From the NCBI RefSeq assembly GCF_041053055.1, contig NZ_CP163443.1, positions 1,984,001 through 2,048,000 on the forward strand: 64,000 nucleotides of DNA. The letters run 5' to 3'. The position numbers and the translations under genes are program-made. The stretch is from Streptomyces sp. R41. Its GTDB lineage: Bacteria; Actinomycetota; Actinomycetes; Streptomycetales; Streptomycetaceae. The notes beneath the pieces were generated by a model. That model made no database searches. It had not been told where the DNA came from and saw nothing but the letters and a program-made list of their open reading frames with translations. Shown piece by piece: positions 1-52,654 of this stretch (its first letter is position 1; every line of letters begins with the position of its first letter).

Positions 1-716
1 GTGAGCGCGACGACCTGGCCCGGGGTGACCGAGGGCCCAACGGTCACCAGGGAGTCGCGGTCCAGGAGGACGTCGGTGACCGGGCGGGAGCCCAGCTCCA
101 GGGCGTCCTCCAGACGCTCCTGCTCCTCCGGTTCCAACAGGCCCGCCTGGCCCGAGTCCTCGACCAGCCGGTTGAGCTGTTCGCTGGTGAAGACCGCCTC
201 GACCTCGTCCCTCGGCTCCACACGGAACAGCTTCAGGATCAGCCGGGCGCAGGCGCCCAGGCCGACGGTGACCGGCCGGCACAGCCGCGCGAAGGCGACC
301 AGGCCGGGACTCAGCCACAGCGCCGTCTTCTCGGGCGCGGCCATAGCCAGGTTCTTCGGCACCATCTCGCCGATGACGAGGTGGAGGAAGACGACGAGGG
401 CGAGCGCGATGACGTATCCGAGGGGGTGGATCAGCCCGTCGGGCAGATGAATCGCCTCGAAGACCGGCTCCAGCAGATGGGCGACGGTCGGCTCGGCGAC
501 CGCGCCGAGCGTCAACGAGCAGACGGTGATGCCGAATTGGGCCGCGGCCATCATCTGCGGGAGCCGCTCGAGGCCGTACAGGACCTGTCGGGCCCGCGCG
601 GTCCCCAGCGGTTCGATCTGGCTGCGCCGCACGGAGACGAGCGCGAACTCGGCGCCGACGAAGAAGCCATTGGTGAGCACCAGCAGCGCGGCGAAAAGGA
701 GTTGGAGCACGCTCAT
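1..716 (-). CDS. CNNM/HlyC-family membrane protein (partial, 3' end outside window)
   Basis: N-terminal 238 residues of a hemolysin-C/CNNM-type protein (DUF21 membrane domain followed by CBS domains), a family linked to divalent-cation transport or homeostasis. The first segment (LLFAALLVLTNGFFVGAEFA) is the typical DUF21 start, GEMVPKNLA lies near residue 116, and a CBS domain seems to begin near residue 215 as the window ends. The ATG at 716 overlaps the TGA of the upstream paralogue by four bases, so the two are translationally coupled. The N-termini resemble each other closely, suggesting a tandem duplication. Family call is firm; substrate unknown. Confidence 0.85.
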   Translation of the reverse strand, partial: MSVLQLLFAALLVLTNGFFVGAEFALVSVRRSQIEPLGTARARQVLYGLERLPQMMAAAQFGITVCSLTLGAVAEPTVAHLLEPVFEAIHLPDGLIHPLGYVIALALVVFLHLVIGEMVPKNLAMAAPEKTALWLSPGLVAFARLCRPVTVGLGACARLILKLFRVEPRDEVEAVFTSEQLNRLVEDSGQAGLLEPEEQERLEDALELGSRPVTDVLLDRDSLVTVGPSVTPGQVVAL

Positions 717-7005: not shown

Positions 7006-7159
7006 TTCCCGGGTCCTCCTGCCTCATGGGGCACGGACTCCGGGGCCTGTCGATGACGACAGAATGAGCGGACGACGACACCGGGAGCGACGCCGCAAGG
7101 GGACGTGTCCCATGGGACACGTCGCAACAAACGGCAGCGCGCACGAATGCCCGCCCGCC

Positions 7160-7286
7160 GCGCACTGCCTCCCATCCGGACTTTAACCGTCGGTCCAGGA
7201 ATTTCACCTGGTCAACCGGCCGCTGGAAGCGACCGGGTCGCGGACTGTAACCGCCGGTTCGGAATTTCACCGACCCCGGAGTGCGC
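7160..7286 (-). promoter_or_regulatory. FMN riboswitch (RFN element) upstream of ribE
   Basis: On the minus strand the conserved RFN blocks appear in order: GGTGAAATTCCGAACCGGCGG, a variable hairpin, GGTGAAATTCCTGGACCGAC, then a closing AGTCCGGATGGGAG. The P1 stem is clear: GCGCACT at 7280-7286 pairs with AGTGCGC at 7160-7166. FMN binding should shut down the ribE-ribM-ribBA-ribH mRNA, at termination or translation level. The expression platform between 7159 and the ribE start was not resolved. Confidence 0.93.
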
Positions 7287-7443
7287 TGCTTCTGGTACAG
7301 AGCCAGTGTGCCACGCCTGATCGACGCCCATGCGGGCGAATGCCTGTGGGGTGGCTCACAGGCCATATGGATGGACTTCTCGCGCGGCGCGCGAGCGGCC
7401 AACTTCCGCTCCGGCGCACGCCCTTGATAATGATCCATACCCA

Positions 7444-48653: not shown

Positions 48654-50801
48654 TCACCCAATGTCCGGCGGATCGATCCGAACCCGTACGGGCTCACTCC
48701 CCCCACGCGCCATCCGCGCCGCCTGCGCGGTCTTCAGCGCGGCCGCCAGCGCCGCACCGCTCCCGGGCGGCACCCGGATGAGGGCCCGCTCCCAGCGCTC
48801 ACCCGGAGGCGGCGCACCCACCCGCCGGGGCCGCCCCGCCTCCGTGACGGCCATCGGTACGGGCCCCAACACCTCGGCGTCGCGAGGAAGTTCGACCACG
48901 GCGAGAAACTCGGTGAGAGCCTCCGGCGCACCGGAGACGGCCGCCATCCGAGAGACAGGCGGAAACCCCAGCTCGGCCCGCTCGGCGAGCTCGCGCACCG
49001 CGTGCCCGACGGGATCCCACCGCACGAGCGCCTGCACGGGCCGCAGCGTCGGCTCGGCGACCACCACCACGGTGCCCCCGGCCTCCTGCGGGCGTACGAG
49101 TGCCGCGGCCCCGATCCAGCGTCGCAACGCGTCCTCACCGGCCCGCAGATCGGGCCGCCCGAGCATCGCCCAGCCGTCGAGCAGCAACGCGGCGGCGTAC
49201 CCACCCTCGGCGACGGGCTCGGCTCCCGGTGTACTGACGACGAGGGCGGGCGCCTCGGACACGGTGTCCAGCACCTGCTCCCGCCCGGACGTCCGCACCG
49301 GCACGGCCGGGAACGCCCGCCCCAGCTCCTCGGCGGTGCGCCGGGCACCCACGACCTGCGCCCGCAGCCGGAACCCGCCGCATTCGGGGCAGTGCCAGGC
49401 CGCCTCGTCCCGCCCGCACCACGTACACCGCAGCGCGCCCGCGTCCTGTGCCTCCAGCGGCCCGGCGCAGTGCCGGCACCGCGCGGGCGCCCGGCACTGC
49501 GCACAGGCCATCCGGGGCACGTACCCCCGCCGAGGTACCTGCACGAGCACGGGCCCGCTCCTCAGACCCTCCCTGACGACCCGCCAGGCGAGCGTGGGCA
49601 GCCGCGCGGCGCGAGCGGCCTCGTCCCGCGCGAGATCCCCGTCCCCCACGGTCCGCACGAGCGGCGCCGCCCCCCGCACCTGCTCCCGCTCCGCGACCAG
49701 CGGCAACGCCCATCCGCTCTCGACGAGCTGCGCGGCCTCGACCGTGCAGCCCCAACTCCCCAGCAGGAAGGCGCACTTGTCGTGGGCTGCCCGCAGCAGC
49801 AGCACTTCCCGCGCATGCGGCTGCGGCGCGTGCTGCTCGCTGTGGCTGTCGTCCCCGTCGTCCCAGATGACGACCAGCCCCAGATCCCGCACGGGGGCGA
49901 ACATGGCGGCCCGGGTCCCCACGACGGCCCGTACGGAACCACGCCGGACGGCGAGCCACTCCCGATACCGCTTCTCGGGCCCGGCCTCGGCGGTGAGCAC
50001 CGCATGCCGCCCCTCTCCCAACAGCGAGGTCAGCGCGGCATCAACCCGGGATACGGCACGCCCATCCGGTACGACGACGAGGGCGCCCCGCCCGGAGGCG
50101 AGCGTCGCGCCCACGGCTCTGGCGATTTCCTCGGCCCAGCCAGGCCCCGGCAACGCGTTCCACACAGCTCGCGGCGCCCCGCCCGCCGCGAGCGACTCCA
50201 CAAAGGCGGCCCCGCGCCCGTACCGCGCCCAGGACCCCACCTCAGGCGCCTCGGGAACGGGCAGCGGCTCGGGCGAGGGCTTCCCCTCCGCCCGCGCGTT
50301 CCGCGGCGGCACCGCAAGCTGCAGCACATCCGCAAGGCTCCCCGCATACCGATCGGCGACGGCCCGGGCCAGCCCCAGCAGCTCGGGCCCGAGCACGGGC
50401 TCGGGAGACACCACCTGGGCCAGCGCGGCGAGCGGCCCGGAGTAGTCGGAATCGGCGAGCCGCTCGACGAGAAACCCGTCGATCAGTCCGCCACCCTCAC
50501 GGCGCCCCTCCCGCACGCGATGCCGCCCGGCCCCGAACCGCACCCGGACGCGCACCCCGGGCCGAGCTGCCTCATCAAGCTCCTCAGGCACGGCGTAATC
50601 GAAGTACCGATCAAGATGCAGCACGCCCTTGTCGACCAGCACCCGCGCGACCGGCAACTCCTTGGCAAGCGCCGCCCCCCGCCAGGTCCGCGGCTTCGCC
50701 TTCGGCACCTTGGCCTGCCGCACCCCCTCGCGGATCAGCGCAAGCTGCTCGGGCGGCGCGCCCTCCGCGCCACCCTCACCCCGCCCATTCGCGCTGCTCA
50801 C
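48654..50801 (-). CDS. priA: PriA-like primosomal protein lacking helicase motifs
   Basis: 715 residues. N-terminal DNA 3'-end-binding domain (FDYAVPEELDEAARPGVRVRV), a helicase-fold region without a valid Walker A (NALPGPGWAEEIARA where GxTGSGKT belongs) and with DDGDDSH in place of DEEH. An intact zinc-binding region follows (CAQC, CRHC, CTWC, CPEC). Actinobacterial PriA proteins are known to lack detectable helicase motifs. GTG at 50801 has AGGA eight bases upstream and starts SSANGRG. The 5' leader carries the tRNA-like element. Confidence 0.88.
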   Translation of the reverse strand: MSSANGRGEGGAEGAPPEQLALIREGVRQAKVPKAKPRTWRGAALAKELPVARVLVDKGVLHLDRYFDYAVPEELDEAARPGVRVRVRFGAGRHRVREGRREGGGLIDGFLVERLADSDYSGPLAALAQVVSPEPVLGPELLGLARAVADRYAGSLADVLQLAVPPRNARAEGKPSPEPLPVPEAPEVGSWARYGRGAAFVESLAAGGAPRAVWNALPGPGWAEEIARAVGATLASGRGALVVVPDGRAVSRVDAALTSLLGEGRHAVLTAEAGPEKRYREWLAVRRGSVRAVVGTRAAMFAPVRDLGLVVIWDDGDDSHSEQHAPQPHAREVLLLRAAHDKCAFLLGSWGCTVEAAQLVESGWALPLVAEREQVRGAAPLVRTVGDGDLARDEAARAARLPTLAWRVVREGLRSGPVLVQVPRRGYVPRMACAQCRAPARCRHCAGPLEAQDAGALRCTWCGRDEAAWHCPECGGFRLRAQVVGARRTAEELGRAFPAVPVRTSGREQVLDTVSEAPALVVSTPGAEPVAEGGYAAALLLDGWAMLGRPDLRAGEDALRRWIGAAALVRPQEAGGTVVVVAEPTLRPVQALVRWDPVGHAVRELAERAELGFPPVSRMAAVSGAPEALTEFLAVVELPRDAEVLGPVPMAVTEAGRPRRVGAPPPGERWERALIRVPPGSGAALAAALKTAQAARMARGGSEPVRVRIDPPDIG

Positions 50802-50877
50802 AGCAACATTCCTACCAGACCCCACTGACACCGCCGTGCGCCCGAGATCAAGCCGGCCGCGGATCGCGCACGTCCTG

Positions 50878-50965
50878 AGGACGCTTCTGCCATAGACCAC
50901 TCGGCCATACCGGTCCAGGACCGGCAGCAGGATTCGAACCTGCGAAGGAGATCACCCGGAAGTAC
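50878..50965 (-). tRNA. Candidate circularly permuted tRNA-like gene (3' half precedes 5' half)
   Basis: Minus strand order: T-stem GCAGG (50943-50939), loop TTCGAAT, CCTGC (50931-50927); acceptor 3' strand TGCCGGT (50926-50920); five bases CCTGG; acceptor 5' strand ACCGGTA (50914-50908); TG; D-stem GCC (50905-50903), loop GAGTGGTCTAT, GGC (50891-50889). The acceptor strands form 7 bp (one G-U). U8, A14, G18, G19, A21, G53, T54, T55, C56, A58 and C61 are all in place. GAAG (50887-50884) can pair with CTTC (50962-50959), closing an anticodon arm across the permutation, with a 15-base variable region. No CCA is encoded. Anticodon uncertain. A remnant of two tandem tRNAs is the main alternative. 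Confidence 0.55.
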
Positions 50966-51093
50966 CCGCAACCATCGCACCGGGCGCCACGACGTCAGCA
51001 CCTCCCGAGTTCCAAGCGGCAGCGGACCATGTACCAGATTCACCGCGCGCCCTGGGCGCACTCCACCGAAGTAACCGCGGCCATCGCACCGGG
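50959..51093 (-). repeat. Two 26-base direct repeats flanking the tRNA-like leader
   Basis: Plus-strand copies GAAGTACCCGCAACCATCGC... at 50959-50984 and GAAGTAACCGCGGCCATCGC... at 51068-51093 differ at three bases. GGAGATCACC also occurs beside each. The first copy includes the 3' anticodon-stem strand of the tRNA-like element, so part of that element was duplicated upstream. Confidence 0.75.
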
Positions 51094-51156
51094 AGATCAC
51101 CAGCGTACGAACGCCGCAGCCACCCGCACCACCCATTTCCCGTGTGGTGAAACGGT

Positions 51157-51189
51157 GAGGCCCGGCACCCCGAAGGGGCACCGGGCCTC
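51157..51189 (-). terminator. metK terminator
   Basis: Stem with outer arms GAGGCCCGG / CCGGGCCTC and inner CCCC / GGGG, separated by tandem G-U pairs, three-base loop; starts 17 bases past the metK stop. It separates metK from the tRNA-like element and priA. Confidence 0.8.
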
Positions 51190-51205
51190 GCCGAACAAGC
51201 GGGTC

Positions 51206-52414
51206 CTACAGACCGGCAGCCTTGCGCAGCGCCTCCACCCGGTCCGTCCGCTCCCACGTGAAGTCGGGCAGCTCGCGGCCGAAGTGTCCGTACGCGGCCG
51301 TCTGAGCGTAGATCGGGCGCAGCAGGTCGAGGTCGCGGATGATGGCCGCCGGGCGGAGGTCGAAGACCTCGGTGATGGCGGTCTCGATCTTCTCGGCGTC
51401 GACCTTGGCGGTGCCGAAGGTCTCGACGAAGAGACCGACGGGCTCGGCCTTGCCGATCGCGTAGGCGACCTGGACCTCGCAGCGCGAGGCGAGGCCCGCG
51501 GCGACGACGTTCTTCGCGACCCAGCGCATCGCGTACGCGGCGGAGCGGTCGACCTTGGACGGGTCCTTGCCGGAGAAGGCGCCGCCGCCGTGGCGGGCCA
51601 TGCCGCCGTACGTGTCGATGATGATCTTGCGGCCGGTCAGGCCGGCGTCGCCCATCGGGCCGCCGATCTCGAAGCGGCCGGTCGGGTTGACCAGGAGGCG
51701 GTAGCCCTCGGTGTCCAGCTTGATGCCGTCGTCGAGGAGGGCCTTCAGCTCCGGCTCGACCACGAACTCGCGGATGTCGGGGGCCAGGAGCGAGTCCAGG
51801 TCGATGTCCGAAGCGTGCTGGGACGAGACCACGACCGTGTCCAGGCGGACCGCCTTGTCACCGTCGTACTCGATGGTGACCTGGGTCTTTCCGTCGGGAC
51901 GGAGGTAGGGAATCGTGCCGTTCTTGCGGACCTCGGACAGACGGCGCGAGAGGCGGTGCGCCAGGTGGATCGGAAGCGGCATCAGGTTCGGCGTCTCGTC
52001 GGTCGCGTAACCGAACATCAGGCCCTGGTCGCCCGCACCCTGCCGGTCGAGCTCGTCGTCGTCACCCTCGACCCGGTTCTCGTACGCCGTGTCGACGCCC
52101 TGCGCGATGTCCGGCGACTGCGAGCCGATGGACACGGAGACGCCACAGGACGCGCCGTCGAAGCCCTTCTTCGACGAGTCGTAGCCGATCTCGAGGATCT
52201 TGTCCCGCACGAGCTGGGCGATCGGCGCGTACGCCTTGGTCGTGACCTCGCCGGCCACGTGCACCAGGCCGGTCGTGATCAGCGTCTCCACGGCGACCCG
52301 GGACGTCGGGTCCTCCCGCAGAAGCGCGTCGAGAATGGTGTCGCTGATCTGGTCAGCGATCTTGTCGGGGTGACCCTCGGTCACGGACTCCGAGGTGAAC
52401 AGGCGACGGGACAC
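51206..52414 (-). CDS. metK: S-adenosylmethionine synthase
   Basis: 402 residues. Makes SAM from methionine and ATP. GTG at 52414 (GGGAG four bases upstream) gives the family N-terminus [20 protein letters not shown]; the frame runs further upstream but without homology. Signatures [12 protein letters not shown] and [16 protein letters not shown] (P-loop-like) are intact. I see no SAM riboswitch in the 240-base leader. Confidence 0.97.
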
Positions 52415-52654
52415 AACGCTCCCTGTGGTTGCAGCGGCTGCTGGCTGATCATTGGCGGACGGGACGGAGGCTGCGCCCGGCGTCGTCCGAGAACAGTTTA
52501 TCGGTCGCGCTCGCCCGCAGGCCCCCTTGTCTCGCTTCTCGGAAGCGCTGTGACCTGCGGCACGGGCATTCTGCGCCATGACGATCGGTCTTCACCAGGT
52601 TCGTCACACCGTATTTCGCGCGGATGGAGGCGTCCGTTGAGGCGAATGAGACAT

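Follow-up and report, generated by a model that had tools for sequence, protein, structure and literature searches.

Circularly permuted tRNA genes, in which the 3′ half precedes the 5′ half and a short linker lies between the acceptor strands, are known from algae and archaea, and the Y RNA genes described so far usually adjoin rsr, the gene for the Ro60-like (TROVE) protein Rsr. Chen et al. (2014) reportedly found probable Y RNAs close to Ro60 in over 250 species; the rsr-linked RNAs of Streptomyces may therefore already be known, while copies linked to priA would not follow from it. According to three articles, the basal stem of the Y RNA binds Rsr, PNPase is tethered to Rsr by the Y RNA in the RYPER particle of Deinococcus, and DusA and TruB act on the head of YrlA as a substrate (PMC8394870, PMC7790460, PMC4726728); the first of these also names PDB 6CU1 for Salmonella YrlA (PMC8394870).

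Here, we analyzed a stretch of 64,000 nucleotides from Streptomyces sp. R41 (the window). With a probability that we put at about 0.88, a region of it between metK and priA encodes a tandem pair of non-coding Y RNAs, which would serve in trans as an additional supply of Y RNA for an Rsr encoded far away. The segment 50988-50837 is best read as a bacterial Y RNA of the YrlA type with a tRNA-like head. As in YrlA (Rfam RF02553), a long stem is formed from both ends of the RNA, and the T-arm, acceptor and D-arm follow one another in permuted order; unlike YrlA, the RNA scores below the Rfam cut-off, lies away from rsr, has another stem sequence and lacks an anticodon-like stem. The initial annotation of this DNA had proposed a circularly permuted tRNA-like element at 50878..50965. 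That span proved too narrow: the enclosing long stem was missed, as was the partner RNA at 51097-51000.

Models of the Streptomyces Y RNA stem

A DNA search of 61 genomes returned matches at several loci outside the metK-priA interval, in which permuted tRNA-like modules are bracketed by GGTGCG..GG..CGG.TACTTC (5′) and GATCTCGGG (3′). The modules are often tandem, and many of the loci lie directly upstream of an ORF starting MARFN. Two covariance models were built: R1 from 21 rsr-linked tRNA-like RNAs, whose structure was assigned manually, and R2 from 30 short rsr-linked RNAs. The metK-priA copies were left out of the training of both. In the R1 alignment 96.7% of cells were paired and 18 of 36 pairs showed double changes, a level reached by 0 of 500 shuffles; when the alignment was slid (six slides), only 34-52% of cells were paired. 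Each model also detected the other RNA of the window, R2 finding the long RNA by its stem alone at 45.5 bits (E 2.4e-8). The sequences show that both RNAs are built on the same long basal stem as the Y RNAs found ahead of rsr in this genus; in the second RNA, the T-arm, acceptor and D-arm are arranged as in Rfam YrlA. The features are collected in Table 1.

Table 1. Features of the metK-priA interval, in the order in which the minus strand is read
Feature	Position	Strand	Sequence or basis
metK	51206..52579	-	TIGR01034, 559 bits
G+C-rich inverted repeat after metK, possible terminator	51157..51189	-	read from sequence; no T-run
-10-like hexamer	51102..51107	-	TACGCT; 4 nt before short Y RNA
Short Y RNA without tRNA-like head	51000..51097	-	R2 56.3 bits, E 7e-11; R1 41.7 bits
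Long Y RNA with permuted tRNA-like head	50837..50988	-	R1 74.7 bits, E 3.3e-14
Outer basal stem, 5′ strand	50980..50988	-	pairs with 50846-50837; fold, R1, covariation
Inner basal stem, 5′ strand	50966..50973	-	GGTTGCGG; pairs with 50862-50855; fold, R1, covariation
T-arm	50927..50943	-	GCAGG-TTCGAAT-CCTGC; read from sequence, R1 model match
Acceptor 3′ strand	50920..50926	-	TGCCGGT; read from sequence, covariation
Linker joining acceptor strands	50915-50919	-	CCTGG
Acceptor 5′ strand	50908..50914	-	ACCGGTA; read from sequence, covariation
D-arm, 3-bp stem	50889..50905	-	GCC-GAGTGGTCTAT-GGC
Hairpin after D-arm	50871..50883	-	CGTCC-TCA-GGACG
Inner basal stem, 3′ strand	50855..50862	-	CCGCGGCC; fold, R1, covariation
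Outer basal stem, 3′ strand	50837..50846	-	fold, R1, covariation
priA (primosomal protein N′)	48654..50801	-	NF011452, 1170.6 bits; start taken as GTG 50801

The pair shares with the rsr-linked Streptomyces Y RNAs both the stem motifs (GGTGCG..TACTTC and GATCTCGGG) and the tandem arrangement of a short and a tRNA-like form, the short RNA here preceding the long one. The rsr-linked copies precede rsr, whereas the present pair sits between metK and priA. An anticodon-like stem is also retained in the rsr-linked long RNAs (helix 3; 88.8% paired, double changes in three of four pairs), whereas in the long RNA of the window this stem is not formed (four unpaired marks in the R1 alignment) and small hairpins flank the head.

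Two ordinary tRNA genes in tandem can imitate this arm order. False positives at about 54.6 bits occurred with R1 in many genomes, and the two places inspected were head-to-tail tRNA-Asn genes (L119 1057-1208 and L120 407-714), a warning for Y RNA searches in general. On this account an R1 match had to exceed 60 bits to be counted, a limit set once these cases had been seen, and the cut-off for R2 was E 0.001. That the element itself is the decayed junction of two such genes is hardly credible, as it scores 74.7 bits and is flanked by the Y stem rather than by tRNA halves, and no ordinary tRNA pair was present in the upstream regions of relatives that were inspected.

The Rfam collection gave no match to the pair at the gathering threshold. 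In E-value mode YrlA aligned to the long RNA with matching arm order, scoring 23.7 bits where the gathering value is 69; it gave only 40.2 and 32.9 bits on the rsr-linked Y RNAs of the same genome and 41.3 bits on the tandem tRNA-Asn genes of L119, and at E 0.5 it left the metK-priA copies of G024, G124 and G072 unmatched. Since a tRNA pair outscores these rsr-linked Y RNAs with YrlA, the Rfam model alone is indecisive, and it is the Y stem that decides. R1 and R2 rank Streptomyces Y RNAs above tandem tRNAs, where the Rfam model is not reliable. Elsewhere in the window, Rfam identified a Streptomyces-metK RNA (52419-52535, minus strand) and an FMN riboswitch (7158-7288, minus strand). ARAGORN called a tRNA-Lys (L107 2933-3006), a tRNA-Cys (L109 2478-2547) and a tRNA-Asp (L111 2407-2484) that overlap Y RNA matches; Y RNAs can thus be misannotated as tRNAs.

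The tRNA-like head and its variation among relatives

The permuted order noticed in the initial annotation is seen in the sequence: on the minus strand the T-arm and acceptor 3′ strand (50943-50920) precede the acceptor 5′ strand and D-arm (50914-50889), and both the CCTGG joint between the acceptor strands and the TG spacer between the acceptor 5′ strand and the D-arm were read as described. The acceptor can be drawn with 7 bp, one of them G-U, or with 8 bp and a 3-nt loop; the proposed extension to 9 bp fails, as a loop of 1 nt would be left. An ordinary tRNA had been ruled out, and ARAGORN indeed finds none in the 64-kb window.

Conservation was assessed in an alignment of ten long copies from ten genomes (eight flanked by metK and priA, one by priA only and one by metK only). 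With a structure set by eye on the same ten sequences, 94.8% of cells were paired and 12 of 31 pairs showed double changes. The covariation score exceeded that of all 500 shuffles, and a count of further pair types was no better than shuffles (198 of 500). The compensatory changes that the initial annotation had proposed to look for in the acceptor and T stems of relatives are present: the T-arm stem was paired in 100% of copies with double changes in two of five pairs, and four of the seven acceptor pairs showed double changes. One acceptor pair (columns 76-92) was unpaired in four of the ten copies, and the outermost pair of the RNA in three, the window included. The D-stem hardly varies among the ten copies, so covariation is no test of it and this arm of the head is weakly tested. 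For nine short copies, RNAalifold gave 25 pairs, six with double changes. Folding of single sequences was unremarkable (z -1.37, with 19 of 200 shuffles as stable, and z -0.65, with 45 of 200).

These observations bear on the reading of the element as a circularly permuted tRNA gene, whose RNA would be cut and joined into a working tRNA. The arm order, the TG spacer and conserved residues of the T- and D-loops speak for it; nevertheless, we consider it extremely improbable. The genome's ordinary tRNAs cover all 20 amino acids and include Leu(CAG), so that no missing tRNA would be supplied, and the flanks match a model of the Y RNA stem that contains no tRNA part (the R2 match above). Joining across GAAG/CTTC, as had been suggested, is not borne out either: this pairing is lost in the ten-sequence alignment, GAAG facing CCTC in G024 and CCAC in G124. 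The long RNA differs from circularly permuted tRNA genes in having neither a conserved anticodon join nor a decoding need, and the stretch read as a split loop starting GTCC or as a loop CTCAGGA is better taken as the hairpin after the D-arm, which reads CGCCC-TCA-GGGCG in G024. What stands of the earlier proposal is a genuine permuted tRNA-like fold; the tRNA gene and the joining do not, and a role as priA leader is unlikely (see below). Modules of this permuted order are common in Streptomyces inside Y RNAs.

Which tRNA is imitated by the priA-linked head is uncertain. With the D-arm alone, tRNA-Ser was among the best matches in all five priA-locus copies compared, tRNA-Tyr in four and tRNA-Cys in one, and a comparison using both halves favored Tyr, both comparisons being made without a significance test. 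Away from rsr, dispersed Y RNAs were seen at 13 loci in 13 genomes (L106, L107 and L108-L118; R1 75.7-120 bits); the same kind of D-arm comparison, likewise made without a significance test, placed 11 of the 13 nearest tRNA-Glu. These 13 loci had no evident common neighbor gene; the high-GC3 ORFs around them had no strong common homologue except between L113 and L116 (87%), and the ORFs of L108 and L109 gave a distant ABC-type match (41%).

Distribution beside priA and association with rsr

Whole genomes and 83 priA-upstream regions, some of them ended by contig ends, were scanned. In 11 of 121 genomes of the genus, priA has a Y RNA directly upstream; metK adjoins the other side of the Y RNA in ten, and in the remaining one (G007) the fetched kilobase contained no metK. 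The long form was found beside priA in G000, G024, G072, G124 and, weakly, G007 (32.2 bits), and the short form in G000, G024, G124, G118, G114, G013, G076, G106 and G063; a poor copy in G133 (22.3 bits) was left out of the counts. In G072 (L069) the 5′ part of the priA-linked Y RNA is tandemly repeated ahead of the long Y RNA (49-192, minus strand). In a second, order-level sample of 99 genomes that overlaps the first, ten stretches were fetched, and in four of them (G170, G179, G182 and G151) a long Y RNA occupies the metK-priA interval; in G173 a long Y RNA follows metK, and priA does not occur within about 1 kb. A 261-base query gave no match in phage records.

The proximity of the long RNA, which ends 36 nt before the priA start, and its recurrence directly upstream of priA in 11 genomes would suit the tRNA-shaped, cis-acting priA leader that the initial annotation had offered as an option. 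This, however, we regard as very unlikely. The Y RNA is absent from most relatives, the G173 copy sits beside metK with priA not within about 1 kb, and priA is preceded by its own conserved block, TGTCAGTGG..GGTARGAATG..GTGAGC, present in all ten regions without a Y RNA that were tried (the pattern missed 24 of the 83 regions, which were set aside). Because this block is kept with and without Y RNAs, we infer that a separate RNA gene is likelier than a leader. A pattern for traces of the Y RNA 3′ end upstream of priA matched 10 of 48 block-bearing regions without a Y RNA; as this pattern lacked a background control, we give it no weight.

A further reading keeps the Y RNA origin and takes the copy in this genome to be non-functional and decaying. 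Decayed counterparts, recognized by eye, occupy the same place in G132, G009, G127, G086 and G120, and in G118 for the long RNA. In the window, by contrast, only the outermost pair disrupts otherwise complete helices, and the copy differs from those of relatives by compensatory changes; we judge decay there to be unlikely.

The tandem Y RNA reading gains from the presence of a partner protein. A Pfam TROVE search was positive in 67 of the 121 genomes and located the genome's own rsr at C1:2702578, about 0.67 Mb from the pair; adjacency to rsr, usual though not defining for Y RNA genes, is thus lacking at metK-priA. Three Y RNAs adjoin this rsr, and a PNPase gene is present. The Rsr-like protein (526 aa; L062 1994-3574, minus strand) aligned with TROVE across just 60 residues (49.8 bits), had no NCBIfam match, and was similar (E 2e-28) to two solved sequences labelled 'TROVE domain-containing'; it is a diverged Ro60, though beside Y RNAs. 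R1 matched above 60 bits in 63 of 121 genomes, every one with TROVE, and R2 at E 0.001 in 65, of which 64 have TROVE. Taken together, one or the other model matched in 67 of 67 TROVE genomes versus 1 of 54 others (Fisher p 7e-34, uncorrected for kinship). In the single exception, G089, the TROVE search was negative and a short Y RNA (L242 1160-1488; 73.4 bits) adjoins a 70-residue match to rsr, which we take for a remnant, rsr apparently having been lost before the Y RNA. All 11 genomes with a priA-linked copy have TROVE (p 0.001, uncorrected), and such a copy is absent from most rsr genomes.

Proposed role and significance

Both Y RNAs are probably co-transcribed from a promoter near 51105 and then separated by processing. 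In 9 of 12 loci the motif TANNNT is found 4-7 nt upstream of the first Y RNA; a sigma-70 consensus scan and a terminator scan of 50750-51250 found no promoter and no terminator. By analogy with the described systems, the basal stem would bind the Rsr ring, and the tRNA-like head may be read by tRNA-binding or tRNA-modifying enzymes, PNPase, or both, so that the Y RNA would tether, or gate, what reaches Rsr. The pair would feed the same particle in trans, its Rsr being encoded at the distance given above. Relative to the rsr-linked copies, the head has lost its anticodon-like stem, and small hairpins flank it in place of that stem. One can also imagine, as a speculative and rather doubtful extension, a multi-locus Y RNA system in which copies not linked to rsr imitate different tRNAs (a Ser/Tyr-like D-arm beside priA, a Glu-like one at the dispersed loci), each recruiting its own tRNA-acting protein to a single common Rsr ring or shielding its own step of tRNA metabolism from that ring.

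A literature search that included PMC7790460, PMC9569102, PMC8394870, PMC8628891 and PMC4726728 found no paper on Streptomyces Y RNAs and nothing contrary to the earlier statement that no permuted tRNA gene is established in this genus. Provisionally, what is apparently new is the occurrence of Y RNAs some 0.67 Mb from rsr and without the anticodon-like stem, and the oddity of the pair lies mainly in its distance from the gene of its likely protein partner. This suggests that Y RNA genes need not adjoin rsr, being present, and decaying, elsewhere in the chromosome. In our sample, Y RNAs were found only where rsr or a remnant of it exists, and the purpose of the tRNA disguise becomes testable in a tractable genus.
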